Shown here piece by piece: positions 3-50,465 of a stretch of 64,000 nucleotides of DNA. Under the pieces are notes generated by a model. It ran no database searches and had not been told where the DNA came from. It saw only the letters and a list, made by a program, of their open reading frames with translations. Both the position numbers and the translations under genes were made by a program. Location: IMG/VR virus record IMGVR_UViG_3300005340_000003, positions 1 to 64,000 of that record. One strand, given 5' to 3'. Numbering within the stretch: position 1 is the stretch's first letter; each line of letters opens with the position of its first letter. This DNA comes from a virus.

Positions 3-1004
3 GAATTTGTGAACTATAATGACAACGTGGAATCCGCGAAGGCTTTTATTTCCAGTGCTAAGGCGGTTCCCGTCAAGGATACAAAGACGGTAATCCAGGA
101 CGGAAAACAAAAAACCGTAATTACGGAAACGCCTCAGCATGTAAATAGTTTCGGACAGGTAGTCCCCGAAAAAGATTTAGCAGACGCTTACAAATACGCC
201 ACGATGACTCCGAGTATGTGGCGGCACATGGGCAAGCCTCAGTTTGCCGAATTATCGAGGATTAAGCCCGGAAAATTTGGCGGGGGAATGACCGGTCCAT
301 TGAGCGAACCTGAAGTAACTGCAAAAACAACTGCTGTGACTACACCAACTGTTGTCGAACCCGAACCTTCGGCGATTGTGACCGAGACTAAGGAAATTCC
401 CGTGGACAAATCAACCGTAAAGGCACCTACAGAAGCGCAACAACGCGCCGAATTAGCGTTGGCGAGGTTTTCTTCGTCCAACGACGTGTTCAATTATTTG
501 CAACAGCGTGGATACGATCCGACCACAGTTACGTCCTGGGTGAATAGTTTTCTTCCCGAGATTCTGAAGAGCGGTGATCGTAAAACTTATGACGCAGCCG
601 TTGATGCCTGGTCCCAAGGTTTGCTCCGGCTTGAGTCTGGTGCCGCGATTTCGAAGCAAGAGAAAACTTGGTATGACAAAGCATTTTTCCCACAAGTGAA
701 CGACCCACCTACGGTGGTTGAAAACAAATCGAGGATGCGACGGGACATCGAACGAATGGTTGGAGAAATTGCACAGGCCGGAGGAATCGATTCTCCGGAA
801 TCGAAAGCACAAGTGGCCCGCATTGCGGACGAAGCCAAAAAGGTCTATTCTGAAGCCGGTGCTGCGGCTGGCGTTCCGCCAAAAGGTGCAGCTACACGTT
901 TCCGTCCTCAAACTGGAGGTGCTAATGTCGCTCCAGTCACCACACTTTCCGGAGGGACAAATCTTACCTACGTTCCCGGAGTGGGCTTCAAATACGTAAA
1001 ATAA
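3..1004 (+). CDS. Unknown protein upstream of giant virion protein (5' partial)
   Basis: The reading frame is open to the left edge, so the true start probably lies outside the window; a GTG at 9 is the first possible start inside it. The product has a Thr/Val/Pro-rich N-terminal half, then a helical, charged segment (about residues 225-285) likely to form a coiled coil, and a Gly-rich C-terminus ending near VPGVGFKYVK. I do not recognise the family. It ends in TAATG with the giant protein at 1004, so the two are translationally coupled and it is probably another virion protein. Function is not assigned. Confidence 0.75.
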   Translation, partial: EFVNYNDNVESAKAFISSAKAVPVKDTKTVIQDGKQKTVITETPQHVNSFGQVVPEKDLADAYKYATMTPSMWRHMGKPQFAELSRIKPGKFGGGMTGPLSEPEVTAKTTAVTTPTVVEPEPSAIVTETKEIPVDKSTVKAPTEAQQRAELALARFSSSNDVFNYLQQRGYDPTTVTSWVNSFLPEILKSGDRKTYDAAVDAWSQGLLRLESGAAISKQEKTWYDKAFFPQVNDPPTVVENKSRMRRDIERMVGEIAQAGGIDSPESKAQVARIADEAKKVYSEAGAAAGVPPKGAATRFRPQTGGANVAPVTTLSGGTNLTYVPGVGFKYVK

Positions 1005-7000: not shown

Positions 7001-8869
7001 TACGATACCGCGAAGCATGATCCGAACGATCCGGAAGTTGTGAAATCTTACGATGCTCTCGGTGAAGAGACAGTTAAACAATATCACGCGATTGAGGATG
7101 CGGGATACACCATCGAGCCCTGGAAAAAAGCGGGCGAACCATACGCTTCGAGTGCGGAAATGCTGAAGGACGTTCAGGAAAATAAACATCTTTGGTATCT
7201 TCCGACAACTGGGAATTTTCAAGATGCTGGAAATAACCTCATGCTTCGGCCTTCGGGAGTTGAGGGCGTTTCGTATAACGATTTGTTCCGTGCTGTTCAT
7301 GACTTTTTCGGTCATGCCCAAGAGGGATACCAATTCGGACCGAGGGGAGAGCTTAATGCCTGGAATGCTCACTCGGAGATGTATTCTCCGGAAGCGCAAG
7401 GCGCACTCGCGGCTGAGACTCTCGCACAGAATTCCTGGGTGAACTTCGGAAAACACATGCGAGACGAGGCCGGCAACATCCCCAAACTCGGAGAGGCCGG
7501 ATATAAACCATTACCCGAACGTCCGTTTGCTGAACAGAAAAACATCGTCATTCCGAAAGACCTAATTTCGGAAGCGAAACAATCGGCACAGTTTCAACCG
7601 CGTGACGACCAGGAACAACTTTTTGGCGGCAAGGAATACATTTCCCCGGCTAATTTCACTCGGGCCGAGTTGCTGGATCGTCATCCGGAAGCAATCGTTC
7701 CGAAGAACAGCAACGAAAAAATCGCCTCAGACATTACGGGTTCCCCGCTCTATCGCAAGTCCGACGATCCGGTTCAGGCGTTCGCGGATAAACTCGCCGC
7801 GTTCGCGAAGACGTATGCCGACAACCCGGTTTATCAACTCGGTCTCAAGTGGTATTCGGATTTCGTGCCGGCACTGAAGAAACAATTTGGAAAAGACGCT
7901 CCGATGATGGCGGAACTTCTCGCGGCATCGAGCCCGAATGAAACTCCGACACAGAACTTTTTCTATGCGGCGGATGCTCTTCAAGGCTTCCGATCCGGTC
8001 GCTTCGACAAAATCATCGACAAATTCAATCAGGGATTCGATTTGATGAAGGATGACAAGTGGCTAGGCTGGTATAACAAGGAATTGAAGGCCGGAAATAT
8101 CCCGGATGCTCCAGCTACACCGACTCCTGAAGCGTTCATGGCGCACTGGATTTTCAAGCACGGCCTGAAGCCGAAGCAATCGAATGGTGCGCTATACGGT
8201 TTTCACGGGAAAGCGATTCTTGAAGTAATGGCTCGAAAATGGATAAACGAAAACAAAGGACCGAAGGTCGCTAACTTCGTGCAGAATCTTCTCGGAACGG
8301 GCCACGAAGCGACCATCGACGTATGGGCTGACCGAACAATGCGCCGGCTCGGATATGCCGACACAAAAGATCGTTGGAGAATTTTACCGAAGAATGCTGA
8401 GGGTGTAAGTGATGCCGATTTCGAATTCGCGCAGCAAGCTTTTCGTGAGGCCGCGAAGCAACTCGGTATTAAACCGGATGCACTTCAGGGCGGTCTCTGG
8501 TTTGCCGAAAAGCAGTTGTGGGCTGATAATGGTTGGGGCCGGCTTGATCTCGGAAGTTACATGAAGGAGATGGAAAATTTGCCATTGATTCAGCAGTCAA
8601 TTAAGCAACGACTCAAAACCACAGAGTTGAAGAAAAAAGCTGTGCCGATGGAGCAAACTGGATTACAATTCCAACCAATGAACAAATATAGAATAGGGCC
8701 TTACGGACGGACGGACACGGTGGTAGAAGCCGAGAACACCGAAAAAGCTTTTAGAAAATACGAACGAGAACGGGGGGTTCGTAAAGGAAGCATTCAATCT
8801 AAAGTTTTGACTGTCCGTCCCGTGACTCCGGAAACCGACATCGAAGTTAAACCGAGGAATGTCCGATGA
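1004..8869 (+). CDS. Giant multidomain virion (polyvalent-type) protein, 2621 aa
   Basis: Very long phage protein of the kind called polyvalent proteins, which are packaged and act early in infection (family knowledge; the role here is inferred). Visible parts: an Ala/Gly/Val-rich hydrophobic stretch at about residues 285-410 that could interact with membrane; a zincin-like HEAKH at 614-618; several unassigned globular segments at about 900-1250; a tandem helical repeat ending in QFQPR near 1595 and 1662; a conserved HDFFGH segment at 2099-2104 followed by NAWNAHSEMYSP; and a helical domain at about 2240-2560 containing GTGHEATIDVW. Twelve F-x-P-R/K-like motifs start at 1162, 1259, 1339, 1526, 1595, 1662, 1685, 1727, 1894, 1958, 2197 and 2556, always between domains. 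They look like linkers or processing sites. The start overlaps the upstream stop (TAATG). Confidence 0.85.
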   Translation: MPLDPLIADVPYASENPPPTETPSNVFHTEGPELEQGGPAEKPPLQIAPGTPTLDEIKEYHRLNGTVNPIIDLSAEDIAKLAINDPENFQLSKAMIELRPQWNKEIVNKAADAYNLLERRGWKPPKDLGFSQLPKMVKETVAGAADWLGAVAKGSFGVPASLAMEKIDELSGISPAIDIRRRQELQQGVSEAAAATEASVTGLAFLGEKAWNKLFGKKPELKNQQEKLESLKAFLIPHLAHETISKGGGLVQYSPEIQAEQAQAGLAIRPEEVNKKIAGDPVGFLAFGKGLEGVAGLVGVTKPVATAVSKIPGLKKAAAAVAPEKIAGGAIELAGGAVKGTAKVAEVVAPVAVPVIGAVAGGDVLSNLGHAAAGAITGGLTAIRGVKPVQAAARAVQKGGEAIKTFGREVAGKELPTGATSQLARDVFQSLPSAAGETAKGATLDLGLAALTATTPEDQQGLQLGTILGAAQGLRRTGAWVVSGQKIAPRAWGSKGAVGTSGDLPIFDRMHNAAYSSASPAVREHMNAVRQFLKGIGGDTEAFMANPENVRTAADGRVVNTDIEKALIDSGYDAATAEDWAKQNGMFTKEFAVPGKPGQTKRVIIVADADAAPHEAKHAFQDVIGEQANTVIDKVIRDTYSDQWEQLGQSYAEQLLGRRLNVGESWRNVVLDASGAGNEAANLKISMEAANKFAADNGALPKPGDIAEPPPLDPGQWKTILSADDAGAAADRYISREIAAETFDSIFKNLGAALQEKTGLVPWLAKVVAATTEALGGDSLRGRGTTLGFPLQEPVVQAIKGQVREFVPEIKPKAPGGISPTPRAGAPAPLPSGSPVPFTPEDRAVAAEETRKISEGASDTPKAGGTRSDKELLGEIAAAQAGGDAVKINYLSAPDEPAAAISSNRNVRRQLIEMFRTMPAAARKLWEKNFFPERVRRTAKGKIQVGGWAPEVFAANAHKTAEILSQLDPALSPYEIDRVNKTFTEAGWKQLFEDTQKFVRNQMAGQTGSGQSLVVPRQITEAGFYKPPETAGAGVLDQRNADFISAMFGMKLPETTRVTGGKTPLNIAGQVISQATIPGRVEAPVRARPEGGVYPEPFEGFAISEVNPWRAEFELAVQSAGKTLPSTIEAFQWLNLDNIKEVQHTPEQPQFRGNTLTLQAGFQPKPNDPRAIRSPAVRDDTGKVFEGTWHGDAIGNASMMGSRTRYDDFEHGYTTNTPGEFLSREDALKRATELNQVSKEFSDTREGLEAFEFGKARQFQPQPAKEIEVEGPDGNKYKVRFDGYYDLTALGKGFVPAITALEDLPGSLTKLSSGMGKSLTDAGYKLPELPAPEGEVTQFAPRRRTDDYETLNKQFAQEHPNNAGMRFVEGFEKAYRKDPELKSLMEGVYFQRLSKDNFPDAFYDQAKNIADSFGKPTNNAETDLQNYLADTYPDLVDEINLSQDYFQSLLLTPEKELQQIPAIVEARQNFAFGKIVQEGFDAREAERFLNDWRDEGYSEVASKNPALAKWIDDNLRSGSAQQAAQFQPKASEEEGVRRVVSAPGLEHGGITEPILSFVEPGEFRSTLNRYRDWLMDVKGLTKEEAETRLRGILQFQPRKEGEEVRVGIPSFRATGGNRPSGAAPMMMFKDTGDETRYFKFLQEVKGMTEEQAANEILRLSQFQPRRKTPEEDNIAKIGDESFAIFSPRSRKEEKDQIGPVPRPAIDREERRIRGLTQEEQQTPETAFSPRKREKEDDLRILPTSFGAASKAWILPNGKVEQLGAEWHHQWLDEHPEIQAKYGLKVPAFEGTDTEGVREAALKKGFSRVNLENGNLIVEAREKDWRSVRPIVEDMIERNLDDIDKFRVHLLNDAVDKVTKSLSEKLFDADTDKEKLDRVYNTLSERPQTELETKFQPKTTKEEDLTGTKIVPPTASPMEQALVRALDAWAENQKKQSKKDAEEWLRTHGALPPEGEVAFQPSTEVRNVAKKYSEEEGIDYKPLGAPLAVKEGLAKRIADFYDTAKHDPNDPEVVKSYDALGEETVKQYHAIEDAGYTIEPWKKAGEPYASSAEMLKDVQENKHLWYLPTTGNFQDAGNNLMLRPSGVEGVSYNDLFRAVHDFFGHAQEGYQFGPRGELNAWNAHSEMYSPEAQGALAAETLAQNSWVNFGKHMRDEAGNIPKLGEAGYKPLPERPFAEQKNIVIPKDLISEAKQSAQFQPRDDQEQLFGGKEYISPANFTRAELLDRHPEAIVPKNSNEKIASDITGSPLYRKSDDPVQAFADKLAAFAKTYADNPVYQLGLKWYSDFVPALKKQFGKDAPMMAELLAASSPNETPTQNFFYAADALQGFRSGRFDKIIDKFNQGFDLMKDDKWLGWYNKELKAGNIPDAPATPTPEAFMAHWIFKHGLKPKQSNGALYGFHGKAILEVMARKWINENKGPKVANFVQNLLGTGHEATIDVWADRTMRRLGYADTKDRWRILPKNAEGVSDADFEFAQQAFREAAKQLGIKPDALQGGLWFAEKQLWADNGWGRLDLGSYMKEMENLPLIQQSIKQRLKTTELKKKAVPMEQTGLQFQPMNKYRIGPYGRTDTVVEAENTEKAFRKYERERGVRKGSIQSKVLTVRPVTPETDIEVKPRNVR
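1188..1195. repeat. GTTTAAAC dispersed palindrome (13 copies; first copy)
   Basis: Perfect 8-bp palindrome found by eye at 1188, 2979, 9754, 11150, 12068, 15973, 21768, 33873, 38087, 46996, 50499, 57138 and 58300. Six copies (1188, 2979, 9754, 12068, 38087, 46996) are the 10-bp palindrome CGTTTAAACG. About one copy of an 8-mer is expected by chance in 64 kb. Most are inside genes on either strand, encoding Arg-Leu-Asn or Phe-Lys. Confidence 0.85.
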
Positions 8870-13491: not shown

Positions 13492-15569
13492 TTTGGAAAT
13501 ATCCAGACTCTCGTTTTACTTTCCCCGGTTTCCGTGTAACATTTAATCACTCCCTCACGCTGGATTAGCTCAAGATACCGGTTTATCTGATCCGGCTTGA
13601 ATGATTTAATCAATCCGTCGTTCATCGGGTTCGCCTGTAGCAAGCGATAAAGCTGTGTGAATGTCCCGCGCCACTCAGTCGCTTCCGGCGTCATATTGAA
13701 GAAGGCACGCAACTCTTCGATCAATATTTCCTTGAGCGGTGCCGCCTTGCTCGTCTGGTGGGTTTGGTCGAGAAGATGCGGATCGTGATAAGCAGCAAAA
13801 CCATACCGCCCATCGCGAGGGATGTAGTCCGGAACTTTCCAGTTAAGCACGACACGGCCAAACACAGGAAGCTCAACAGCAAGAATTTTTTGCAGTTCAT
13901 ATCGTTCGGGAAATTCGATTTTGGCGGAGGTGCATTTGAAAACGCATGTCTTCTCTGCCGAGTTATTATCGAGGGCGCACAGAATCCGGCTAGAGGTGAA
14001 GTCTGTATTTGCTGTTACCAATATACGTCCCATCCACTCAACAGTCACGGGAACGCGGAACTTTTCGTTCACTCGGAATTCCTGGTTTGCCGCCGTTTTT
14101 TTCATCATGGCCGAGAATCGGTCATGGGCATTGATCGAGTTGCCGGGAGTTTCATCATCGATTACCCACAAAGGCACATGATAATTCTCCGAGCCAAATG
14201 AATCGCCCCGGACAATATAGTCGCTGGCGTCCACGAATCCGCCGACTAGTCGCCCAACAATGTGCCGGCCACAAAATGTCTTACCGCGATTCGGTTCTCC
14301 GAGGATAAAAACATTCTGTCCTGGGCGGGGGAGAAGTTCCACTGCGGACCGATAATAATGCTGGAGCCACGCCATGAATCTTTGAAACTGTTCCTCGGTG
14401 TCAAAAAGCTGCCGGAGAAATCGGATGATCCAAAGGTCATCGGAATTATGGTCGGCGGGCTGCACTACATTGTTTTTCCAGGTATTCAGCACTTTCCGAG
14501 TGTTGTATTCGATGAGCCCCGGCTGGCGGAAAACAAAGGGGGCCGCGCCGACTACCCGGGCATTTTCGTGAAGGTGGAAAAGTGTATCATCGATTTTCTT
14601 CTCGGGGATGCCGCAACCTTTCTTGAGGAAAATCTTCATCGCTGAGTCGTTTACGGATTGATAGATGCCGTCTATTTTTCGCCAGTAAGCTTGCCCGTCA
14701 TGGAAGATGTCGAGTGTCGCCTGGGTGATTGCTTTTTCGTTGATGTCCTTTGTGAATTCTTTGCCGAGGATTTCCGACCACGAATAGAACGGTTTTTCTG
14801 CGTGGGCCGAGAAAGTAAGCATCCCGTCTGATTTGACAATCGCAGATAGTGGACTAATGGAAGCGGGTATCCAAAATGATGGGCCTTGTGTATCGAGTTC
14901 AAAAGAAGCGGGCCAAGAAAAACCCGGATACCGCTCTCTAATTGCAGGCTCGATGGTGGATAGTGGAATTGTGTTTCCCTCCGCCACTTTGAATTTGAAT
15001 TTTTTGAGAGCTTCGACATAGAATGCCTGGAGTTTGTTTTCGTCTATTGGGGCTGAATCATGAACAGGTGTCCAAACCGCGCCGTTGCAATAAAGGCGGG
15101 TGGGCTCTTCAAAAGCATTCGAATCAAGACCCGGAAGTAGATCGAGATTAAGCCATTTCTTAGCGTGCTGCAAAATCCAAATGGCCAAGTCCGTCGTTTC
15201 GACCGGAAGCGGACGAGGGAGTAACCAGAGCAAACGGCAATTACCTCCAAGGGATCGCTCAATCCAGGATGGTTTAATTGACATGGACAGAATGGCTTCC
15301 CGAATTCGATCTTCGGGAATTGTGACATCGTAGTCGGCAACGAATCCGTGAATATATTTGGCAGGGTTGTCTTTGTTAATTCGCTGATTGTTGTTGGCGG
15401 GCTCAATGGCGGTGTAGAAATTCCAGTCGGTTGATGATGTGCGATACCAGATTTGTCTTTCGGTTTTGTCATGACAGATTTTTTCTGAGGGTTTCGGACT
15501 GTTGAATGTCCAGGGTTCGCAAGGCGTGAGCGTCTTGTCGAGGATGTTGTGGGAGTAGAAAAATTTCAC
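13488..15569 (-). CDS. PrimPol-SF3 helicase replication protein, 693 aa
   Basis: N-terminal archaeo-eukaryotic primase-like domain: ADYD at 78-81, SLGGNCRLLW at about 106-115 and an Arg-containing strand near 158. The C-terminal half is a superfamily 3 helicase: Walker A GEPNRGKT at 424-431, Walker B LWVIDDE at 467-473, motif C LVTANTD at 517-523. It would prime and unwind DNA at the fork with the family A polymerase encoded next to it. I choose GTG at 15569 because it makes a GTGA overlap with the polymerase stop, matching its neighbours; an ATG 66 bases upstream would overlap by 70 bases. Confidence 0.9.
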   Translation of the reverse strand: MKFFYSHNILDKTLTPCEPWTFNSPKPSEKICHDKTERQIWYRTSSTDWNFYTAIEPANNNQRINKDNPAKYIHGFVADYDVTIPEDRIREAILSMSIKPSWIERSLGGNCRLLWLLPRPLPVETTDLAIWILQHAKKWLNLDLLPGLDSNAFEEPTRLYCNGAVWTPVHDSAPIDENKLQAFYVEALKKFKFKVAEGNTIPLSTIEPAIRERYPGFSWPASFELDTQGPSFWIPASISPLSAIVKSDGMLTFSAHAEKPFYSWSEILGKEFTKDINEKAITQATLDIFHDGQAYWRKIDGIYQSVNDSAMKIFLKKGCGIPEKKIDDTLFHLHENARVVGAAPFVFRQPGLIEYNTRKVLNTWKNNVVQPADHNSDDLWIIRFLRQLFDTEEQFQRFMAWLQHYYRSAVELLPRPGQNVFILGEPNRGKTFCGRHIVGRLVGGFVDASDYIVRGDSFGSENYHVPLWVIDDETPGNSINAHDRFSAMMKKTAANQEFRVNEKFRVPVTVEWMGRILVTANTDFTSSRILCALDNNSAEKTCVFKCTSAKIEFPERYELQKILAVELPVFGRVVLNWKVPDYIPRDGRYGFAAYHDPHLLDQTHQTSKAAPLKEILIEELRAFFNMTPEATEWRGTFTQLYRLLQANPMNDGLIKSFKPDQINRYLELIQREGVIKCYTETGESKTRVWIFPK

Positions 15570-17533
15570 TTGAGGTAATGGGGAACTTCCTTTGCTTCGG
15601 CTTTCACCGGCAACCCGGCACACCATTCTGGACAAACCGACATGATGCTTTCAACATCGTGTTTGGTGATGTGTTGATCCGTTTCGAGGATCGCCTCGTC
15701 GTGGCTGGAAAACAGAACGTCAATTCCGGATGTGTCATGTAGGGTTAATAAGTGCTCTGAAAATACGTCCCGCGCCATTCCCTGATCGACGTTCTCAGTC
15801 AGCTTGCCGCCGTAGCTCTCAAATCGACGGTCTCCACGGTCGAACGTAAACACGACTCGAAGCTCCGGCTTGCCGTCCGCATCGGGCTTGAGTCTCCGCT
15901 CACACTTGACCTTTTCATAACGTAACACCCGGCCAGAAGGGAGGACAACTCTTAAATCTGAGCCGACACTGCGTTTAAACATGCCATCCAGGTATGCCCA
16001 CAGCCCGGTTACTTTCGGATTCTGTTCGCGATATTCAGCGACGATCTTTTTGGCCCTCTGACCATAGCCGCTGACTTTTTTGCCGTCCACCTCGATCCAC
16101 TCCGGATCGTCTGCCGTTAAATCCATCCCGGTATAGTCCTGGGCCATGACGATGAACTTCTCCCATCCGGCCCCATATCCGAGCGCGAGAACCCGGGCTT
16201 TCACTTCCGCGTAATAGGTCGAGTCCTTATCGAGAGCAGGCTCGTTGAACCCAAGGGCGGTTCGAGCGTGAGCTTCATAAGGGCTCATGCCGGTTCGAAT
16301 CAAGTTGAGGGTCTTTTCATCCTTGGCAAGCCAGAGCAAACATCGAGGTTCGATCTGTGATAAATCCGACACAATCATTTTCTTCCCAGGTCGGGGAATA
16401 ATCAGGTGTCGGAAATCGATGGAATATTTCACCCAGGCCGGAAACGATTTGGTCTCTTTACGAATTTTCAAAGCTCCATCGATTACTTTTTCGTTCGTCT
16501 CCATCAGTCCGGATTGATCGCAGAGTATCGGTTTCTTCCGCATGTTCTGCATGTTGATTTTCGCGTCTCCGGACCACCTGCCTGTATGTGCTCCGAAATA
16601 CTTCAAACCAAATGGCATCGTCCCATCCGAGCGGAGACGTGCCTTGACCGTCAAAAACGATTTGTAGAGTTTGTTGATGCTGCGCCAGGACGATAATGCG
16701 ACGATCCAGGGATTGCTCTTCCGATACATCGTTTCCCACTCCTCGTAAGCCTCCTCTCCTTCGTGTTCCTTGACGGGCGGGCTTGGAATTCCTGATCGCC
16801 GGCACTGCTCTGCTATGCACTTCGTCGATGTCGGTTTAGTGTTGAAGTCCTCCCATGAATCATCGTCGCTGCCGTCATCTTCCATCCAGGGGATTAAGCG
16901 TTCGGTCGCCAGTTTCATTTCATGACTTTGGAGGATGTAATCGTTTAAGAGCTTCGTATCGATTTGCACTCCGCGCATACCCTGCTCGATGGTCATATTC
17001 GACAAACGCTTTTCTTTCTCTGGCCATTTATCGGAATGATCCGTCCAGAGTTTCCAACACCACCAAGGGTCTTTCCTTGCATAGTCGATCATCGTGGATC
17101 GCTGTTCCGGAGTAAAATCTGCCGGCCAATGTTTGCCGTTGGCGTCCTCCCGAGGGTCTTTCGATAATTTGATTTTGTATAGGTGTTCGACCGCATGAGC
17201 GAGAGCGCGACGGTTGCAGAGATAAGCTGTGAGATTGGCGCTACAATGCCATTCGAGGTAATTTACTTTTGGTGCCCAACCTCGAAGGACCATTTCATTG
17301 TAAACAGTGTTGTCGAAATATCGATTATGGCTAACGAGGATTTTTCCTTCGAGTGACGACCAAATAAAATCTTTCGGGGAGCCCGCCCAACAGGTCGATC
17401 CATCGGAGACGCTAATAATATACGGATCGAAAAGTTCGTGCCGGCAATACTGCTCCGCTATCATCGTCTTAACGGAGTATTTTAATTTCTTGCTGAAGAA
17501 GGTTTCGAAGTCCAGGCCGATTACGTTATTCAA
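15566..17533 (-). CDS. Family A DNA polymerase with 3'-5' exonuclease, 655 aa
   Basis: The exonuclease domain starts with LDFET (D8, E10). The polymerase domain shows the TGRWSGDAKINMQN region, motif A VSDLSQIEPR with catalytic D390, an O-helix-like segment KARVLALGYGAGWEKF, and motif C SSHDEA with H611-D612. The length is typical of phage PolA enzymes lacking a 5' nuclease. The start is TTG at 17533, forming a TTGA overlap with the HNH gene stop; no ATG fits as well. One GTTTAAAC lies at 15973. It replicates phage DNA together with the PrimPol-helicase. Confidence 0.92.
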   Translation of the reverse strand: MNNVIGLDFETFFSKKLKYSVKTMIAEQYCRHELFDPYIISVSDGSTCWAGSPKDFIWSSLEGKILVSHNRYFDNTVYNEMVLRGWAPKVNYLEWHCSANLTAYLCNRRALAHAVEHLYKIKLSKDPREDANGKHWPADFTPEQRSTMIDYARKDPWWCWKLWTDHSDKWPEKEKRLSNMTIEQGMRGVQIDTKLLNDYILQSHEMKLATERLIPWMEDDGSDDDSWEDFNTKPTSTKCIAEQCRRSGIPSPPVKEHEGEEAYEEWETMYRKSNPWIVALSSWRSINKLYKSFLTVKARLRSDGTMPFGLKYFGAHTGRWSGDAKINMQNMRKKPILCDQSGLMETNEKVIDGALKIRKETKSFPAWVKYSIDFRHLIIPRPGKKMIVSDLSQIEPRCLLWLAKDEKTLNLIRTGMSPYEAHARTALGFNEPALDKDSTYYAEVKARVLALGYGAGWEKFIVMAQDYTGMDLTADDPEWIEVDGKKVSGYGQRAKKIVAEYREQNPKVTGLWAYLDGMFKRSVGSDLRVVLPSGRVLRYEKVKCERRLKPDADGKPELRVVFTFDRGDRRFESYGGKLTENVDQGMARDVFSEHLLTLHDTSGIDVLFSSHDEAILETDQHITKHDVESIMSVCPEWCAGLPVKAEAKEVPHYLK

Positions 17534-19930: not shown

Positions 19931-21757
19931 ATGTTTTTTTGCCCGTGTAACTGCCACGTAGTAAATGTTTTGCTCCTCGTCGCCTTTATTCTTTTTGAAG
20001 GTCGCCGTCAGAATAAACACCCGGTTCCATTCGAGGCCTTTCGCCTTGTGAACGGAACTGAGGACAACAGAAGGCTTTGCGTTGCTGTCGGTATCCTGGA
20101 AAAGCGAGTAAATTTTCGATTCAATCTCGGCTACATTCCGAGCCCCCTCGGACACCGCCATCAGCGTATCCACTTGGTCGTTCACCTGGGCGATTTTCGC
20201 TTCCGCGTTTTTCGTCGCGCCAAAGCGAGCCCTCTGCTTGGTTCCCCAGGCTTCGAGCTTGCGGATGAAATCCGGCACGCTCTTCGCCCTGAGTTTCCGA
20301 ACCATTCCGACTAGCTGCGCTCCAATGTCGCGTCCCTCGATCCGAGCCGGCGTTCCACGGCGGAGGAGGTTCAGGCATGCGCTCATGAGCGGAGCGTTGA
20401 GGCGGCTGAGGATCGCATCGCCGATCCGAGCATGTTCGAGAACGCTCACCACTTCATCCACCAAGCCCTCGGGAGCACTCGGGGCGGCTTTGTAATCGGT
20501 CACAATTTCAGCCGCAATTGCCACCACAGCCTTCGGGCAGCGGTAAGTGGTAGTCAGACCGAAGACCCGGGCTGAAAGACGCTCCTGCATCATCCTCATG
20601 CCATTTTGAGCCGCTCCACGAAACGCATAGATTGCCTGCCGGTCGTCGCCCACGATGCAAATCCGACCGCCCGGTTCACAGCTTCGAATCGCCATTTCGA
20701 GTTGCGGGAGATTCATATCCTGGCTCTCATCCACCACCACGAGGCCGAAACGAGGGAAAACCCAATTCTTCACCACCGGCAACCAGACCATATCGTTGAA
20801 GCTGATTCGGCCCTCGTTGTCGCGTTCCTTGGCGGCTTCCAGGGCGTCGAAGGCCACTTTCGCGAGCTTCGCCACGGTCCAGCCGCCATCCGCTTCGGCC
20901 TCTGCTGCTGAGAAAATCCCCCGGTCGTTCGCGATGTCGATAAGTTGTTCGACGGTAGGGTTGAGGAGAAGGTTTTTCGCGAAGCCGACGATCCGTTCCA
21001 CGCAACCAAGGACTTCCTCCGGGATATTCGGGCTAACCGCTTCGATCCGAGCCGCTTCCACCGAGGCGTCCGGCTTCACACCGGGCCAAACTTGCGTGAT
21101 GTAGAAAAAACCGAGGCTATGCAACGTCTTGATCTCCACGCGCTTGTCGGAGATTTTCTCTTCGGCTTCGATCTGGTTTTTCTTGTTGAAGACCGCGTAA
21201 AGGAGCTTCGTGATGTGGCTCGGAACGAAGGTGAAAGCCTGCTTAATGGTCGTCGTTTTGCCAGTGCCGGCCCGGGCTTGGACGACCGCATTGCCAGTGC
21301 CCGACGCGAACCATTGAAAAATCTCTTCCTGCTCTGCGGACCAAAAAACGGTGGGAATAGAAGGGATCGAACCTTCAACACCCGCGCTCAAACTATCAGT
21401 GCCAGTCGAGGCACCCGAGACGTTTGACGACTGCGCGGGCACGGAGCCATCCACTCCCGACAGTGACGGAACTTGGGCTTGTTCTTGAGGGTTGGTGGGA
21501 TTGGTCGTCTCGTCAGACGTAGCGCCATTACCCCACAAGCAAATTTCCCAAGTTCCGTCACGGTCGTTTTTACTGCAAGAAACACCCTCATTTTTCAAGG
21601 TGTTCTTACTCGATCTCCAGGCATTCCAAAAAGCCGGTGTCGGCGCTGCGGTTCGGAGCGTCCGGATTCCCACTCGGGTATTCACGGTTTTCGGCTCGCT
21701 CCAGTTCAGTTGAATTGTTTCAATCACGGGAGCACTATCGCAGAGGATCGCCGGCAC
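19913..21757 (-). CDS. UvrD/Rep-like superfamily 1 DNA helicase, 614 aa
   Basis: SF1A helicase motifs: AGTGKTT at 163-169, VVDESQD at 341-347, GDDRQAIYAFRG at 370-381, VHKAKGLEW and YVAVTRAKKHL near the C-terminus. An N-terminal region (1-135) contains a small Trp-rich domain (FWNAWRSSKNTLK) and a low-complexity Ser/Gly/Pro linker not found in classical UvrD. It would unwind DNA in replication or recombination. The start is GTG at 21757 with no Shine-Dalgarno and a hairpin-rich leader upstream. Confidence 0.9.
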   Translation of the reverse strand: MPAILCDSAPVIETIQLNWSEPKTVNTRVGIRTLRTAAPTPAFWNAWRSSKNTLKNEGVSCSKNDRDGTWEICLWGNGATSDETTNPTNPQEQAQVPSLSGVDGSVPAQSSNVSGASTGTDSLSAGVEGSIPSIPTVFWSAEQEEIFQWFASGTGNAVVQARAGTGKTTTIKQAFTFVPSHITKLLYAVFNKKNQIEAEEKISDKRVEIKTLHSLGFFYITQVWPGVKPDASVEAARIEAVSPNIPEEVLGCVERIVGFAKNLLLNPTVEQLIDIANDRGIFSAAEAEADGGWTVAKLAKVAFDALEAAKERDNEGRISFNDMVWLPVVKNWVFPRFGLVVVDESQDMNLPQLEMAIRSCEPGGRICIVGDDRQAIYAFRGAAQNGMRMMQERLSARVFGLTTTYRCPKAVVAIAAEIVTDYKAAPSAPEGLVDEVVSVLEHARIGDAILSRLNAPLMSACLNLLRRGTPARIEGRDIGAQLVGMVRKLRAKSVPDFIRKLEAWGTKQRARFGATKNAEAKIAQVNDQVDTLMAVSEGARNVAEIESKIYSLFQDTDSNAKPSVVLSSVHKAKGLEWNRVFILTATFKKNKGDEEQNIYYVAVTRAKKHLTFVG

Positions 21758-29280: not shown

Positions 29281-29610
29281 TTAGCTGAGTTTGGTCTGGT
29301 TGCGGAAGTAGTAAATCGCGAGGGCGAGCTTCGCGTTTTCGAGCTTCGACTCCAATTCGTTCACCACTGCGCGGAGTGCGGACCCATCAGCTTCGATGGT
29401 GGAATCAAGCGGGACGTATCTCCCGTTTAAGTCAAACGATTTGGTCGGGGTTTCATAGCCCGACCAAATTCCTATAGTGCTGCCCCGGCTGCGTCGATCA
29501 GGAGCACCAGACTTTGTGATTTCCGAGTGGGTGAAAAACTTCTTTCCATCGACTACGGCAGGCGTGATAATTTCCCCGGTGTAGATGTTTACGATTTGCG
29601 TGATGTTCAT
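29281..29610 (-). CDS. Protein of unknown function, 109 aa (first gene after promoter)
   Basis: N-terminal beta segment (MNITQIVNIYTGEIITPAVV), a central GSTIGIWSGYETPTKSF and a C-terminal helix (LRAVVNELESKLENAKLAL). Not recognised. Directly controlled by the promoter/hairpin at 29627-29683. Confidence 0.7.
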   Translation of the reverse strand: MNITQIVNIYTGEIITPAVVDGKKFFTHSEITKSGAPDRRSRGSTIGIWSGYETPTKSFDLNGRYVPLDSTIEADGSALRAVVNELESKLENAKLALAIYYFRNQTKLS

Positions 29611-29626
29611 TTTTCGGTTTTTTCTG

Positions 29627-29683
29627 GTCTGCCTTTATTGGCTGACCGTGCATATAACATATCAGAAAGGACGCACTCTGCAA
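29627..29683 (-). promoter_or_regulatory. Promoter with AAUAAA-loop leader hairpin (copy 3)
   Basis: On the - strand: GTTGAAAATACTTGTTGCAG, with -35 TTGCAG at 29683-29678, a 16-base spacer ending TTTCTGA, and TATGTT at 29661-29656; then CACG and a hairpin GUC-A-GCC, loop AAUAAA, GGC-A-GAC (29646-29627). Then 16 A-rich bases lead to the ATG at 29610. Long sequence identity with the copy at 37568-37624, while the stem bases differ yet still pair. Confidence 0.75.
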
Positions 29684-29702
29684 CAAGTATTTTCAACTTT
29701 CA

Positions 29703-37549: not shown

Positions 37550-37567
37550 GATTTTTGTTTTTGTTTG

Positions 37568-37624
37568 GCCGGCGTTTATTCGCTGACCGTGGTTACAACA
37601 TATCAAAACCGCTGGAGTCTGCAA
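37568..37624 (-). promoter_or_regulatory. Promoter with AAUAAA-loop leader hairpin (copy 4)
   Basis: On the - strand: GTTGAAAATAGTTGTTGCAG with -35 TTGCAG at 37624-37619, 16-base spacer, TATGTT at 37602-37597, then CACG and the hairpin GUC-A-GCG, loop AAUAAA, CGC-C-GGC (37587-37568). It is followed by an A-rich leader to the ATG at 37549. The stem differs from the copy at 29627 at several positions with pairing kept (covariation). Confidence 0.75.
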
Positions 37625-37633
37625 CAACTATTT

Positions 37634-38254
37634 TCAACTTTCTTTGGCTGGTTGTAGAAGTCGTTGCTCAATAGACACTTGCATAACGTTGTCTGCGTTC
37701 GGAATAACTTTCCTCACCTCCGCGATGTCGCCGCAGCCGTAAACCAGGCTCGGATGTGACTTGTCGGCCTCAAACCAAGTGCTTACGACCGTTTTGGTTG
37801 AGTCGAGACTGAGAGGCTCGAAAATGATCGCCTGGGAAGTTCCCAAGCTACTCAGTTTCACAATGCCCTGAAATGCGTTCCGGACGAGGCTACGGGCGGT
37901 GTTGTTGACGATGGACATCAGTTGCGCCGGATTCTCCTTGGCGTTGCGTATAACCGATTCTGGAATGAATGCGGATACTTGCCATCCGATGCGGCCTCTA
38001 CCCGATGGGTCGCTGTTCTCAACACGGATTTGCATAACCTGGGAGCGCAGGTGTTGATAATCCTTTCCCCACTGTTTGATCTCTGCGTTTAAACGAACCT
38101 TTTGGGCGGAGCACCCGTGAAAACGAAAAGTCATCGCGTCGAGTTCCACCTGGAGGCGGATAACATTCGATTTGAGATTCTCGCACTCCGAGAAAAGGTC
38201 GCCGGTCCAGAAATTCCACAGCCAGCGGTGGAGTTTATGAAGAATGTTTTTCAC
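37634..38254 (-). CDS. Protein of unknown function with N-terminal coiled coil, 206 aa
   Basis: Trp-rich amphipathic start (KNILHKLHRWLWNFW), a helical region (about 20-75, with RLNAEIKQWGKDYQHLRSQV) and a C-terminal alpha/beta domain (90-206). GTG at 38254 is the first plausible start after the neighbouring gene and overlaps it by 20 bases. One GTTTAAAC at 38087-38094. Not recognised. Confidence 0.65.
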   Translation of the reverse strand: MKNILHKLHRWLWNFWTGDLFSECENLKSNVIRLQVELDAMTFRFHGCSAQKVRLNAEIKQWGKDYQHLRSQVMQIRVENSDPSGRGRIGWQVSAFIPESVIRNAKENPAQLMSIVNNTARSLVRNAFQGIVKLSSLGTSQAIIFEPLSLDSTKTVVSTWFEADKSHPSLVYGCGDIAEVRKVIPNADNVMQVSIEQRLLQPAKES

Positions 38255-39855: not shown

Positions 39856-40469
39856 ATTGTCACGGGTGCTGGTGTTGGTTTTTCGATGTTGTCGTAAATC
39901 GGCGTGGTGATCTCGGTCAGTGCTTCCAGGTTTGCGAGTCGCGTTTCGAGGTTTGCAAGTGAGTTGGTCAGCCGATCCTGGAGATATTTTATCGCTTCGT
40001 TGTCGAGGTTTGTGATCCGGAGTTCGAGTGCGTCGAGTCTTTCATCGAGGGAAAGTTTAGCGGGAGACGAGGGAGCGCACAACTTCTGTTTTGGTTGTGT
40101 GTCGTTAAGAAAATCGCCGAACGCGACGGCGAGTCGGGCGAGGAGAAAATTGGCGAGGGCTCCGCCGTTCTCTTCCTCATTCTGAGTATCGTAAGTCGCC
40201 TGGGCTTCGCTGTAGTTGTATTTGGGCGGGCCTTTGCGATACCGTTGAAAACGAAGGGACGCCATATCAGCGAAGCGCAAAGCCGATTGGTAGTCGTCAA
40301 TGTAGGCTAGGACGACCTGTGATCCGGCAATCGACATCTGAACGACGTAGCTGTTGCCAGCAGTGCGATACACGAAAAGGTTCCGCTTGAGCGGTATCGG
40401 TGCGTCCGAGAATTTAAGGTGGCGGGCTGATTTAATCAGGGATGCGGTTTGCGGATCGAGTTTTTTCAT
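39843..40469 (-). CDS. AP2-like DNA-binding protein with C-terminal coiled coil, 208 aa
   Basis: Residues 28-90 (SYVVQMSIAGSQVVLAYIDD, YQSALRFADMASLRFQRYRK, then YNYSEAQATYD) resemble the AP2-like fold common in phage HNH proteins. The HNH found in the neighbouring paralogue (40432-41055) is missing; instead there is a C-terminal coiled coil (about 140-190, DERLDALELRITNLDNEAIK). It may bind DNA without cutting. Overlaps the upstream gene by 38 bases. Confidence 0.65.
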   Translation of the reverse strand: MKKLDPQTASLIKSARHLKFSDAPIPLKRNLFVYRTAGNSYVVQMSIAGSQVVLAYIDDYQSALRFADMASLRFQRYRKGPPKYNYSEAQATYDTQNEEENGGALANFLLARLAVAFGDFLNDTQPKQKLCAPSSPAKLSLDERLDALELRITNLDNEAIKYLQDRLTNSLANLETRLANLEALTEITTPIYDNIEKPTPAPVTIWKP

Positions 40470-41055
40470 TGAGGTAATTGATTGCGGAGGATAGTTGATC
40501 GGTGGAATTGTTGAACGCTTTTATCCCCATGTGGCATGCGCGGCACAAAATACCGTTGTTGTCCGGATCGAATTTTGGTCGGAGGAATTCGGTAAAATCA
40601 TTCCGGCAGATGGCACACTTGCCGGTTTGTTTGCGGAATAACAGGGCGAAGTCTTCTTGCGTGATACCATACCTGGATTTCCGAATGCGGCCCGCATTTG
40701 ACGATATGCTGACCCTACGAATGTCAACGCCTGATTCGATTTTATCCAGGTGAGCCCGAATCTCTGGAATCTCTGCATCGATGGCGGCTTGCTCCTCGGA
40801 GAAGCACCAGAGAGGGAATTGTATCCGGTCGAGGAAACGAAAAGTGGCGGCATCCGCTAGACGGAATGCGGTCTCCAGGTGTTTGACGAATCCTATCGTG
40901 AGGGATTTCTTGGGATTGAATGTGATGGTCACGGACCAGATGTCGGGATAGGGAGATCGAAAAACGTTGTTTGCGGTTTGCCGTTTGCGGTCGGTGTTTG
41001 GCAGTTCAAGCTCTCTAACCTCAAACGCTGCTGGAGGACGAAGGATTTCTCGCAT
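40432..41055 (-). CDS. AP2-like/HNH (endonuclease VII-like) protein, 207 aa; first leftward gene
   Basis: N-terminal AP2-like region (35-90: WSVTITFNPKKSLTIGFVKH, HLETAFRLADAATFRFLDRI) followed by a zinc HNH module at about 130-200: YGITQEDFALLFRKQTGKCA, CAIC and LCRACHMG with a final AINYL helix. The canonical DH of endonuclease VII (VDHCH) is replaced by KFDPDNNG, so activity is uncertain. First gene leftward from the divergent hub. Confidence 0.78.
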   Translation of the reverse strand: MREILRPPAAFEVRELELPNTDRKRQTANNVFRSPYPDIWSVTITFNPKKSLTIGFVKHLETAFRLADAATFRFLDRIQFPLWCFSEEQAAIDAEIPEIRAHLDKIESGVDIRRVSISSNAGRIRKSRYGITQEDFALLFRKQTGKCAICRNDFTEFLRPKFDPDNNGILCRACHMGIKAFNNSTDQLSSAINYLNEKTRSANRIPD

Positions 41056-41123
41056 ATCCGAACAGTGCCACAGCTACAGGGAAAATGACAACTCTTTTTG
41101 TGTCGGACGTGGGAGGTTGGGTA

Positions 41124-41314
41124 TTACGATAGAAACAAGCCCCCCCAAAAAGGTAAGGATTAAGCTCGGTAGGTAGGTAAGCAGGAGTATTCCCTTAGAT
41201 ACACTTTAATATTATTTGTAAAAATTGATATATAAAGATAAAGGGTGGGAGACCCCCAGTTACCTACCTACCGAGTATCTCTAAGGGTTTTGGACCCCGA
41301 AGTTTCTATCGTAA
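41124..41314. repeat. Concentric inverted repeats around AT-rich centre (divergent hub)
   Basis: Outer arms TTACGATAGAAAC (41124-41136) and GTTTCTATCGTAA (41302-41314), 13/13 paired; inner arms CTCGGTAGGTAGGTAA (41165-41180) and TTACCTACCTACCGAG (41260-41275), 16/16 paired. Both pairs share one centre near 41219-41220, in an AT-rich core (about 41195-41245). A further off-centre pair is CCCTTAGATAC (41192-41202) and GTATCTCTAAGGG (41275-41287). It lies between the leftward and rightward gene blocks, so it is a candidate replication origin, partition or divergent control site. Confidence 0.85.
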
Positions 41315-41370
41315 GGTCGCAACACCGTTTTTTCAGTGGCGCTTTTCAGCGCCGGGGATCACATCTTTTC

Positions 41371-41526
41371 GTGAGAGAGAACGAGACTGACCTTTTCTCG
41401 GGCCTACCGTCCGAGGACGTAAAACGCCTCAACCGCCAAGCCCGACAGGAGCGCCGGCAGAAAGCCAGGGAAGAATGGAAACGAAAGAACCTCCAACGTT
41501 TGCCGGATTCGAGAGATATGAAGTAA
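41371..41526 (+). CDS. Possible small basic protein, 51 aa
   Basis: From GTG 41371: RENETDLFSGLPSEDVKRLN then a strongly basic helix RQARQERRQKAREEWKRKN. The frame is open further left into the palindrome, but that part does not look coding. Overlaps 41475-41747 by 52 bases in another frame. Weakly supported. Confidence 0.4.
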   Translation: MRENETDLFSGLPSEDVKRLNRQARQERRQKAREEWKRKNLQRLPDSRDMK

Positions 41527-41747
41527 AGGGCGATTCGGCGAGCCCACCACCCGATTCTGAATTCGCCCGAGTTGTCGCCGAGGTGTGGGCGTTGAACCTC
41601 GCGTGGCCCACCACTTTTCGCGGCGGCATGCGCGAATCGATTCAGCACGGTCGCCGATGCGCCGGTTTGCGACGGGTGAGGCATGGCGAAGTGAACGGCT
41701 TTTCTGGATTCGTGCAGATACCGCGACAGACCACTCATTATGAGTAA
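41475..41747 (+). CDS. Possible protein of unknown function, 90 aa
   Basis: METKEPPTFAGFERYEVKGD, then FARVVAEVWALNLAWPTTFR and GGMRESIQHG. It ends overlapping the start of 41740-42429 by 8 bases, typical of coupled genes. Other frames are also open in this GC-rich piece, so support is moderate. Confidence 0.5.
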   Translation: METKEPPTFAGFERYEVKGDSASPPPDSEFARVVAEVWALNLAWPTTFRGGMRESIQHGRRCAGLRRVRHGEVNGFSGFVQIPRQTTHYE

Positions 41748-42429
41748 TCAAATTTCAATCCCCGTGAAGCATACAGAACTGGAAGCAGCGTTTGATCGAG
41801 AGCAGGCTTTTCTGTTATACACAATGTTTGGTGGCGATTCAGTAAAGACCGCGCATGCGTTGGGAATGCGAGCCGTCGATGTGTTGCGTATGTCGGAAGA
41901 GGAATCATGGAACGAGAAGATCAAACCAATTCTTGAGCTTCGTAAATCAAATAAGCCTGGAGATTTTGAACGTTCCGTCAACCGAGCGATGAACTTTTGT
42001 CAGGCTCGCCGTCTTTGGTTATTTCTTGAACGAGTCATTAACAGAATCACAGGCATGTCTGAAGAGGAGTTGAACGACTATTTGTTTACGGGTGAGCAGA
42101 AGTTCAATGCGGATGGATCGTTGAAAGGTGAAGTGAAGAAACTAACGACACGGGCGCTCGCGGATTTAGCTAGTGCGTGCGAGAAAGCGCATGCGTTGAC
42201 TTACTTGGCTCTTCATGATGTGGCCTCAGACCGAGCGAGACGAAAAGAGGAAGTGAGTGGGAACGAAGACGCAGGAGAACTTCATATCCGAATCGCACGG
42301 GCAATGAGCGAGGTAAAGCGAAGCAATACACCACGCGCCGAGTTGTTCGACCTGAAGCTTGAGCAAGCCTCACAGCAAATCAATGCTCAGGAGAAACCCG
42401 CAAACCCCCTGGACAATGACGACCATTGA
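41740..42429 (+). CDS. terS: Putative terminase small subunit, 229 aa
   Basis: N-terminal HTH-like region (about 20-60: EQAFLLYTMFGGDSVKTAHA, LGMRAVDVLRMSEEESWNEK) and a long helical body containing ADLASACEKAHALTYLALHD, with an acidic tail. This is the layout of phage small terminase or DNA-recognition subunits, and it opens the rightward late block that includes the large terminase at 48516. No direct motif proof, so the call rests on shape and context. Confidence 0.6.
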   Translation: MSNQISIPVKHTELEAAFDREQAFLLYTMFGGDSVKTAHALGMRAVDVLRMSEEESWNEKIKPILELRKSNKPGDFERSVNRAMNFCQARRLWLFLERVINRITGMSEEELNDYLFTGEQKFNADGSLKGEVKKLTTRALADLASACEKAHALTYLALHDVASDRARRKEEVSGNEDAGELHIRIARAMSEVKRSNTPRAELFDLKLEQASQQINAQEKPANPLDNDDH

Positions 42430-46681: not shown

Positions 46682-46791
46682 AAAGATTCATAACCAATCC
46701 GAGAACGGACACAGATGCCTTGATTGGAGGCTTCATTATTTCCGTGGCTGTCGCTACCGTGATAATCCTCATTGTGTGCGCTCTTACATGA
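46678..46791 (+). CDS. Small single-span membrane protein, 37 aa
   Basis: MKRFITNPRTDTDALIGGFI, then a hydrophobic helix (ISVAVATVIILIVCALT). ATGA overlaps with the protease before it and the recombinase after it, so this is a compact coupled trio. Function unknown. Confidence 0.6.
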   Translation: MKRFITNPRTDTDALIGGFIISVAVATVIILIVCALT

Positions 46792-47597
46792 AAGTTTACA
46801 GCTACATTCGGGTCTCGGGTCGCGGACAAGTCGGCGGGGAAGGCCCCGACCGCCAGCGTGAGAGCATCAACGCCTTCTGTGCGGCCCGAGGACTTTTCTC
46901 CAACGGCGAGTTTTTCGAGGCCGGCGTCTCCGGCACGGTCGATGGAATGGACCGCCCTGAATTCTCCGACATGATCGAGCGGATCGAATGTCTGCGTTTA
47001 AACGGCGCTGAATGCGACGGGTTCGTTATCGAGCGGCTCGACCGGTTGGCGCGTGATTTAATGGTTCAGGAGGTTCTACTCAGTGAATGCCGGAAGCGTG
47101 ACATTAAGGTTTTCGCTGCCGACCAGGGGGAACTTCTCGACCTCGCTTCGGATGCCGGCGATCCGACACGCAAGCTCATCAGGCAGGTTATGGGAGCCCT
47201 CGCGGAGTGGGAGAAATCTCAGACGGTTTTGAAGTTGCGTAAAGCGCGTCAGGCGGTTAAGGTTCGAACTGGACGTTGTGAAGGTGCCAAGCCGTATGGC
47301 GTCACTCCTGAAGAGCGGGGGATTTTGACGGCCTTGAAACTTTTCGTCCGTCCGGATAGCACTTTGAAGGACATCGCGTCACTACTTAACCGGGAAGGTT
47401 TTCATACCCGGCACGGCGGCACCTGGGACGAGAAGTCCGCATTCAGGGTGATGAAGATTGCCGGCGTGTGGCAGCGAAAGCCGACCGAGAATAATTTGAA
47501 GAATTTGGGTAAACACGCAAAAAATAAGCGGGAAGTCGGGGAGCATAGCCCCGCATTGCCTCTGGCATGTGGTGTAACAGTAGCACAACCGCACTAA
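46788..47597 (+). CDS. Serine recombinase (resolvase/invertase type), 269 aa
   Basis: Catalytic domain (1-150): YIRVSGRGQ with nucleophile S10, DRQRESI, ERLDRLARDL and an E-helix KSQTVLKLRKA. C-terminal recombinase DNA-binding part (about 155-235: GAKPYGVTPEERGI, LLNREGFHTRHGGTWDEKS). Shorter than large serine integrases. Could integrate the phage, resolve multimers or invert a segment. The start at 46788 gives an ATGA overlap. tRNAs lie 300 bases downstream but no att repeat pair is evident. One GTTTAAAC at 46996. Confidence 0.88.
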   Translation: MKVYSYIRVSGRGQVGGEGPDRQRESINAFCAARGLFSNGEFFEAGVSGTVDGMDRPEFSDMIERIECLRLNGAECDGFVIERLDRLARDLMVQEVLLSECRKRDIKVFAADQGELLDLASDAGDPTRKLIRQVMGALAEWEKSQTVLKLRKARQAVKVRTGRCEGAKPYGVTPEERGILTALKLFVRPDSTLKDIASLLNREGFHTRHGGTWDEKSAFRVMKIAGVWQRKPTENNLKNLGKHAKNKREVGEHSPALPLACGVTVAQPH

Positions 47598-48283: not shown

Positions 48284-48535
48284 GTGGTCAAACGCCATCG
48301 GGAAAATAGGGATGTGGCTCGGTTCCACGACCTCACTTCGCGACCAATTTTGAAACGAATCGTTTACACAAGAATTGATACTCGACCGACCGCACCCCCC
48401 GGTCAGGGTCAGGCGATCCGCGAATGGGACGACGCCTGGAGAGCGAAAGGTTTTCGGACAAAGATTCTGATTTCTCCGGACTCCGCGAAGCTCCTCGGGA
48501 TTAAACCTAAGAACCATGCTGACCGACCCCGCTGA
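48284..48535 (+). CDS. Protein of unknown function upstream of terminase, 83 aa
   Basis: From GTG 48284; the C-terminal part RIDTRPTAPPGQGQAIREWD, DAWRAKGFRTKILISPDSAK looks well coding. The frame is open further left and the true start is uncertain. Ends 20 bases inside the large terminase gene. Not recognised. Confidence 0.55.
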   Translation: MVKRHRENRDVARFHDLTSRPILKRIVYTRIDTRPTAPPGQGQAIREWDDAWRAKGFRTKILISPDSAKLLGIKPKNHADRPR

Positions 48536-50465
48536 AAAATTTCTCGCGCAGCAAGTCGCTCAGAAAGTTCACTCGGATAAAAAATTCGAGGCGGCTCAAC
48601 AGATTGACGATTACCTGAAGCTCAACCTCCACCTGGAGGACGACCCGAAGCAGTTCCTTCCGGTCCTGATGCACTACGTTCACTATCTCCTGAACGCAAA
48701 CGCACCGGAAGCCGCCGCGCAGGTTCTCTGGACACCAAACCAATTCACGCCGGAGCCACAATTTACAAAAGACCTCTGGCAACTTTTCGACCGGTCCGCG
48801 CAGGGGCTGATTATGGGCGCGGCATCCTGCTCGAAGTCCTACGGAATGGGTGTAAGACTTTTTCTCGAATGGATTCGCGATCCGGAGTGGACGACCATTC
48901 GAGTGCTCGGTCCGAGCGAGGCTCACCTGGAGCAGAATCTTTTTTCTCATCTTGTCGGATTGCACAAGTCAGCATCGCTGCCGATGCCCGGGGAAATCGG
49001 GGAACTTTTCATCGGCACCGACCGGAGAAATCAGTTGTCGAGCATCATGGGCGTAATTATTCCCGTTGGCCAAAAGAAGAAGGCCGGCAGGATTCAGGGT
49101 GTGAAGCGGAAGGGACGGATCACCCGTCATGAAGTCTTCGGAACTCAAAGCAGGCTTTTTATTTTTGTGGATGAAATTGAAAACGTCCCGGGCGGTCTCT
49201 GGTCCGACATCGACAACATTCTGTCGAACATCCAAGAGGAAGGCGAGACATCCGGATTCAAAATTTTCGGCGCGTTCAACCCAACGAATCAAACAGACGA
49301 AGTGGGGAAACGAGTCGAGCCTCCTTTCGGTTGGGAAGGATTCGATGTCGAAAGCCATTACCAATGGAAATCGAAACGTGGGTGGGATGTTCTGCGTCTT
49401 GACGGGGAACGATCCGAGAATGTAGTTCAGAAAAAAGTAATCTACCCAGGACTGCAAACTTATTCCGGATTGGAGATTATCGCGAGGAATGCCGGTGGGA
49501 AATCCGCCGCAGGATATTTTTCTATGGGACGCGGTGCCTATCCGCCACAAGGCATCGAGCTTACCGTGATACCTCCGGGAATGTTAATGAAGTGGCGGGG
49601 AAAGTTCATTTGGTATGACGAACCTAAACCTGTTGGATCAGAAGATTTGGCTCTGGAGGGAGGAAACGCAGCAATATACACTCTCGGAAAATGGGGGAGA
49701 GCAACTGGTATTCTTTTTCCTCCAACCATTGAATACCCATCCGGTCGCAAGTTCATGTTTAAAGACCGCAATGGACACTCAGTCACTCGATACGGACTTC
49801 AGGCCGACCAGCAGTTCATCATTCCTAAAGGAGATACACGGGCAATGACTGACCGGACGATTGAAGTGAATCGTCGCGCGGGAGTGCGGGGGGAATTTTT
49901 CGCGTGTGATCGAACGGGCGCGGGTGCTGGAACAGCAGACCTTCTCCGGCATGAATGGAGTCCATCGCTTCATGATGTGAATTATTCTGAGGCGTGCAGC
50001 AAAGATAAAATCATGATGGAGGATTCGAAACCCTGCAACGAACAATTCGAACGAATGAATTCGGAACTCTGGTTTGCCCTCAAGTCCTGGGGCGAGTTTC
50101 AATATTTCCTCATCAACCCCGAACTGGATTTGACGAAGCTCACCGGACAACTCACTCAACGAAAATTTCGAATCGTTGGCGGGAAGACGCGAGTCGAGCC
50201 GAAGAAGGATTATGTATCGAGAGGCTTCGAATCTCCGGACGAAGCGGACAGCCTAACTCTTCTCGTTCACGCGGCACGTAAAGGTTCCGGTGTGACTCTC
50301 AGCATGTCCCTCGATAATGTCGGCGAACTGAATCCGAATTACGACGATTCGGATGGATGGCTCGACGAGATAACACTTTTGGGTGGGGCTCGGATCGATG
50401 AGAGCAACCGCACGCAATTTCTCGATGACGGAATGAAGCCGGTTCACGAGGACGCAATTTTATGA
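48516..50465 (+). CDS. terL: Terminase large subunit, 649 aa
   Basis: Packaging motor. ATPase: a deviant Walker A GAASCSKSYG at 101-110 and Walker B LFIFVDE at 214-220, then a coupling-type segment GAFNPTN. Nuclease domain: acidic strands at LALEGGNAAIYTLG, FFACDRTGAG with D465, and SRGFESPDEADSLTLLVHAA near 590. Size and order fit podovirus/siphovirus large terminases with an RNase H-like nuclease. Next genes are portal and scaffold, as expected. Confidence 0.92.
   Translation: MLTDPAEKFLAQQVAQKVHSDKKFEAAQQIDDYLKLNLHLEDDPKQFLPVLMHYVHYLLNANAPEAAAQVLWTPNQFTPEPQFTKDLWQLFDRSAQGLIMGAASCSKSYGMGVRLFLEWIRDPEWTTIRVLGPSEAHLEQNLFSHLVGLHKSASLPMPGEIGELFIGTDRRNQLSSIMGVIIPVGQKKKAGRIQGVKRKGRITRHEVFGTQSRLFIFVDEIENVPGGLWSDIDNILSNIQEEGETSGFKIFGAFNPTNQTDEVGKRVEPPFGWEGFDVESHYQWKSKRGWDVLRLDGERSENVVQKKVIYPGLQTYSGLEIIARNAGGKSAAGYFSMGRGAYPPQGIELTVIPPGMLMKWRGKFIWYDEPKPVGSEDLALEGGNAAIYTLGKWGRATGILFPPTIEYPSGRKFMFKDRNGHSVTRYGLQADQQFIIPKGDTRAMTDRTIEVNRRAGVRGEFFACDRTGAGAGTADLLRHEWSPSLHDVNYSEACSKDKIMMEDSKPCNEQFERMNSELWFALKSWGEFQYFLINPELDLTKLTGQLTQRKFRIVGGKTRVEPKKDYVSRGFESPDEADSLTLLVHAARKGSGVTLSMSLDNVGELNPNYDDSDGWLDEITLLGGARIDESNRTQFLDDGMKPVHEDAIL

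Follow-up and report, generated by a model that had tools for sequence, protein, structure and literature searches.

The 64,000-nucleotide window analyzed here is part of an IMG/VR phage record of 74,598 bp, and in it a leftward block of replication genes and a rightward block of genes depart from a noncoding interval that is occupied by a palindrome. The palindrome and the genes that bear on its interpretation are as follows.

15566-17533, minus strand: DNA polymerase, in the leftward block
40432-41055, minus strand: first leftward gene (207 aa) with a C-terminal endonuclease VII (HNH-like) domain, opening the leftward replication block
41124-41136, plus strand: left outer arm of pair A, TTACGATAGAAAC, 13 bp, matching 41302-41314 at 13/13 positions
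41165-41180, plus strand: left inner arm of pair B, CTCGGTAGGTAGGTAA, 16 bp, with GGTA iterations, matching 41260-41275 at 16/16 positions
41192-41202, plus strand: left arm of the off-center pair C, CCCTTAGATAC
41203-41244, no strand: AT-rich core, containing TATATAA
41260-41275, minus strand: right inner arm of pair B, TTACCTACCTACCGAG; the center of the pair is at 41220
41275-41287, minus strand: right arm of pair C, GTATCTCTAAGGG, with 2 nt inserted compared with the left copy
41302-41314, minus strand: right outer arm of pair A, GTTTCTATCGTAA; the center of the pair is at 41219
41371-41526 (about), plus strand: first rightward gene (~51 aa), of a small basic protein family, with a GTG start inferred
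41740-42429, plus strand: predicted helix-turn-helix (HTH) protein (229 aa), conserved, and the query for finding relatives
46776-47597, plus strand: small serine recombinase, conserved downstream
48516-50465, plus strand: likely large terminase, assigned from its motifs (Walker-A-like MGAASCSKSYG, and FIFVDEIE), at which the late module starts

The leftward block also encodes helicases, an exonuclease, an RNA ligase, and a DUF5906 protein, and the likely large terminase is conserved in 11 of the 12 records searched. The DNA polymerase is intact in the window, and its homologue in three related records (G005, G006, and G012, which carry loci L039, L040, and L043) is divided between two open frames of ~360 and ~280 aa, possibly reflecting an intron, an intein, or a frameshift. 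Elsewhere in the window, positions 1004-8869 encode a protein of 2,621 aa that matches DUF7178 toward its C-terminal end, and a 93-bp direct repeat with 80% identity is present at 29609-29701 and ~37551-37642.

The palindrome has most of the layout that the initial annotation had read from the letters: two perfect inverted repeats of 13 and 16 bp with a common center at 41219-41220, an AT-rich core enclosed by the arms, and a position at which leftward and rightward genes diverge, the leftward open reading frame starting at 41055 and the rightward gene at ~41371. The third, off-center pair that it listed (CCCTTAGATAC/GTATCTCTAAGGG) is present but imperfect, with a 2-nt indel, and the GGTA iterations that it noted in the inner arms are real in this genome but absent as a family feature. 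The gapped hairpin score of the palindrome is 23, against a mean of 11.3 (standard deviation 1.4, maximum 16) for 100 dinucleotide shuffles; it tops all 700-bp tiles of the window for inverted repeats and is the strongest inverted repeat in the whole 74.6-kb record. Folded as single-stranded DNA it reaches -40.2 kcal/mol (z of -7.1), a value equaled by none of 200 shuffles. Next in strength in the record is an inverted repeat within the leftward block at 21458-21566 (score 21). The palindrome arms have no further copies in the window, and a search of 1.25 Mb of phage sequence for the arms as multicopy repeats or as copies of other sites found only the partner arm; the 16-mer CTCGGTAGGTAGGTAA has one match each in five other viral contigs, approximately the chance expectation. 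A protelomerase telomere site of the telRL type was considered and rejected, as no near-perfect palindrome runs through the center, and the core of 43 to 136 nt is nonpalindromic.

Relatives were located using HTH protein profiles, giving 24 viral loci and one contig, L050 (JABFSS010000096.1), that belongs to the family and comes from the bin of a Candidatus Peribacteraceae MAG, which may hint at Candidatus Peribacteraceae as the host. Isolates are distant: window positions 40900-41600 have no nucleotide match in the phage collection, the HTH protein has no match among isolate phages, and the window DNA polymerase is only ~24% identical to those of isolates. We compared 16 independent versions of the locus, consisting of the window and 15 related loci, and in 15 of these a strong inverted repeat occupies the same intergenic slot upstream of the HTH gene, which lies 200 to 860 bp to its right; the small basic protein gene is directly to the right in all 16. 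Arm lengths in the relatives range from 24 to 60 nt, as illustrated by L038 (arms 43/43 perfect, core of 75 nt), L042 (35/35 perfect, core of 52 nt), L046 (arms of 56 nt), and L031 (arms of 60 nt). The sixteenth version, L030, is weak, with an 11-bp pair (ATTTTCCGGGG/CCCCGGAAAAT) and a nested 6-bp pair. In full-length scans of the eight larger contigs, the palindrome ranks first among inverted repeats in six and second in one. The cores of the versions compared are 54 to 76% AT, compared with 38 to 51% for the flanks, and are pyrimidine-rich to the left of center and purine-rich to the right. TATATA is present in 12 of the 16 versions; such AT-rich words are the one motif plainly in common, and the arms of the different versions have no motif in common. 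The contigs are metagenomic assemblies, in which inverted repeats are prone to assembly error, but identical palindromes are recovered from independent metagenomes, which argues against an assembly artifact.

The arm sequences evolve fast, both arms being replaced in concert, with pairing retained. Among relatives whose flanking DNA is 90 to 98% identical, the arms are unrelated or partly so, yet they pair within each genome. For example, the left arms of L041 and L085 are 43% identical (the shuffled mean is 44%), whereas over 200 nt of the adjoining gene region the two loci are 90% identical, and they have the left part of the core in common; within each of these genomes, the arms are 97 to 100% matched. 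In the L041 and L042 comparison, 200 nt at the next gene are 98% identical and the outer arm block is common, but the inner arm and core are replaced. L026 and L027, with HTH proteins that are 96% identical, have the inner arm CCCTGACAAAA/TTTTGTCAGGG in common, and the adjoining 12-nt block has been swapped on both sides together (CCGGGCCCTATG versus GACCTAGGTTCT), with the core reverse-complemented. Of 175 arm mismatches, 34 are G-T, 26 are A-C, and 115 are other, with ~29 each expected by chance for G-T and A-C, and this absence of a G-U bias, with no sign of selection on RNA pairing, indicates that pairing acts at the DNA level. The same mismatches count against a structured RNA, either a long hairpin transcript or a common 5' leader, and we consider this highly improbable; the strong folding would suit it, but there is no convincing Rfam match and the promoter that could be detected points away from the palindrome.

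The inverted core of L026 relative to L027 could also be produced by an invertible DNA switch, in which a small serine recombinase inverts the core, which the arms enclose, and, for example, redirects a promoter. Such a recombinase is encoded downstream of the palindrome in 16 of the 19 loci examined, the others being mostly truncated, and a link to core inversion is possible. However, the arms have no recombination-site motif in common, the leftward promoter is outside the part that would invert, and each set of assembled contigs from one phage (4, 4, and 2 contigs, plus further sets) shows a single orientation, so that a switch of this kind appears decidedly improbable. We note that the recombinase persists throughout the family even though no integration module is evident.

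Endonuclease VII/HNH-type genes also adjoin the palindrome, both in the window (40432-41055) and in L026 (4801-5310), L027 (5469-6014), and L042 (2276-2761), and they vary in side and orientation among the relatives. In this they resemble homing endonucleases of the free-standing kind at a recombination boundary. Relatedness between the first leftward gene of the window and those of L008 and L015-L017 could not be demonstrated.

A leftward sigma70-like promoter (TTGAC[AG]-N18-TATNTT) is present in seven relatives, 20 to 65 bp to the left of the left arm and reading away from it, and TTGAC motifs recur to the right of the palindrome without a clear -10. These promoters are consensus matches, and the window has no good sigma70 promoter match outside the palindrome arms. 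Because the promoters read away from it, the palindrome is upstream DNA between divergent transcription units. This position between divergent promoters would be appropriate for a transcription-control region, with a dimeric regulator binding the arms and determining whether early leftward or late rightward genes are expressed; the conserved protein with a predicted HTH has its gene close by on the right, and GTCAC shows a modest excess in the elements (9 of 16 versions, versus 3.0 expected). However, the HTH protein is well conserved and no family-wide arm motif accompanies it, the outer arms of L026 and L027 differ in spite of their near-identical HTH proteins, and perfect arms of 35 to 43 bp are longer than a normal operator. 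The divergent operator bound by a dimeric protein, which the initial annotation had offered beside an origin, is thus weakened by the lack of a common arm motif, the unrelated arms beside near-identical flanks, and a leftward promoter that lies outside the palindrome, and we regard regulation of this type as rather doubtful.

The HTH protein is suspected to be either a small terminase or a regulator, and in the former case the palindrome, lying upstream of its gene, could serve in packaging as a pac or cos site. Its predicted layout of an HTH, a long helix, and a beta-hairpin recalls small terminases; downstream, the same strand encodes the likely large terminase. But the predicted model, which is of low confidence (pLDDT of 64), has no PDB fold match at E < 0.001, neither family searches nor fold searches with this model match known small terminases, and pac or cos recognition normally requires a conserved sequence. 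The larger contigs cross the palindrome at differing positions, and it is therefore not a fixed physical end. The distance from the palindrome to the contig end also varies, and the leftward block in relatives runs on across the contig end (in G005, the polymerase is at 62 kb and the palindrome is at 10.6 kb), from which we conclude that the maps are circularly permuted. Overall, packaging is an unlikely role.

On comparative sequence evidence, we favor the interpretation that the palindrome serves this phage family as its replication origin, and assign it a probability of about one-half. In all of the loci it is a noncoding site at the exact divergence point of the modules, and the origin proposed in the initial annotation is still the best explanation, with comparative support from the place and architecture kept in 15 of 16 versions, the AT-rich core, and the precedent of phage c2. 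We also count in its favor the leftward promoters of seven relatives, the replacement of arms in concert, and the DNA-level pairing. The initial annotation had expected the arms of an origin to be conserved in relatives; their sequence is not, but their pairing is, an outcome that it did not foresee. It had also proposed GC skew as a check, and across the larger contigs the skew is inconsistent at the palindrome and shows no regular switch of the kind expected, which may count against an origin. The AT skew does reverse its sign at the palindrome in each of the eight larger contigs, but it follows gene orientation and is thus not independent evidence. Also weighing against an origin are the L030 version, with only 11 plus 6 bp, the c2 ori, a functionally tested analogue without a comparable long repeat, and the lack of a good sigma70 promoter outside the palindrome in the window. 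Nor did the analysis find an initiator protein.

Supercoiling of the twin-domain type should peak between divergent transcription units. At an origin in this position, transcription departing on both sides would leave the region strongly negatively supercoiled, the AT-rich core would melt, and the arms would extrude as a hairpin or cruciform, at which the phage helicase-primase and polymerase could load and replicate along both blocks. An initiator at such a site would respond chiefly to shape and to the opened core, and the arm sequence would therefore be free to change. When one arm is altered by mutation or recombination, template switching by the polymerase may copy the change to the other, sometimes flipping the core; template switching would account for arm homogenization and spacer inversion alike. 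The retention of place and pairing with freedom of sequence fits a cis element for which shape and melting matter. It is tentative, and a good deal less secure than the origin itself, that DNA shape is what is recognized, with arms pairing with almost any sequence, alleles being replaced as matched pairs, and turnover proceeding by template switching and possibly through adjacent origin-targeting nucleases.

Since phage origins have little sequence in common, they are difficult to recognize, and a rule of pairing plus position could help to locate them in uncultured phages. An inverted repeat that is kept while its sequence is freely replaced is also a natural test of whether shape alone specifies a cis-acting site, and the concerted replacement of arms between close relatives bears on how palindromes evolve.

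Template switching at quasipalindromes is documented, and it homogenizes arms and inverts spacers, as seen in this phage family; it is, however, a mutational mechanism and leaves the family-wide retention at the same place unexplained. In herpes simplex virus oriL and oriS, inverted elements flank an AT-rich spacer and form a hairpin on unwinding, and oriL is a palindrome between divergent genes. The arrangement of inverted elements around an AT-rich spacer is the same here, but the herpesvirus boxes are conserved sites for the origin-binding protein, whereas the phage arms are not conserved and no homologous initiator is known. The Vibrio PLE provides another parallel, as its noncoding origin also diverges among relatives and is exchanged between them, with the origin-directed nuclease ICP1 Odn as a driver. 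The PLE origin differs in having iterons bound by RepA, neither such an initiator nor iterons being found in this family; the endonuclease VII/HNH genes beside the palindrome may recall origin-targeting nucleases such as ICP1 Odn, although this is only a lead.

The closest comparison is with the Ceduovirus phages (lactococcal c2, bIL67, and 923), in which the ori occupies the noncoding DNA that separates the divergent early and late modules and is of three types without mutual similarity, all three of which support plasmid replication. The siting between early and late blocks and the diversity of sequences at one locus are thus shared with the family described here. Moreover, the first late genes of c2 are a short open reading frame and one annotated as a Holliday junction resolvase, with a counterpart in L026, L027, and L029, where a small gene and an endonuclease VII gene are to the right of the palindrome. 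The phages are nonetheless unrelated, with no sequence relation and genomes of 22 kb versus about 70 to 75 kb, and a long inverted repeat is missing from the c2 ori (score 15, the 89th percentile of the c2 genome); the divergent gap of crAss001, used as a palindrome control, has no long repeat either. Given that c2 is without the long repeat, this phage family would have not a member but a variant of the Ceduovirus-type origin.
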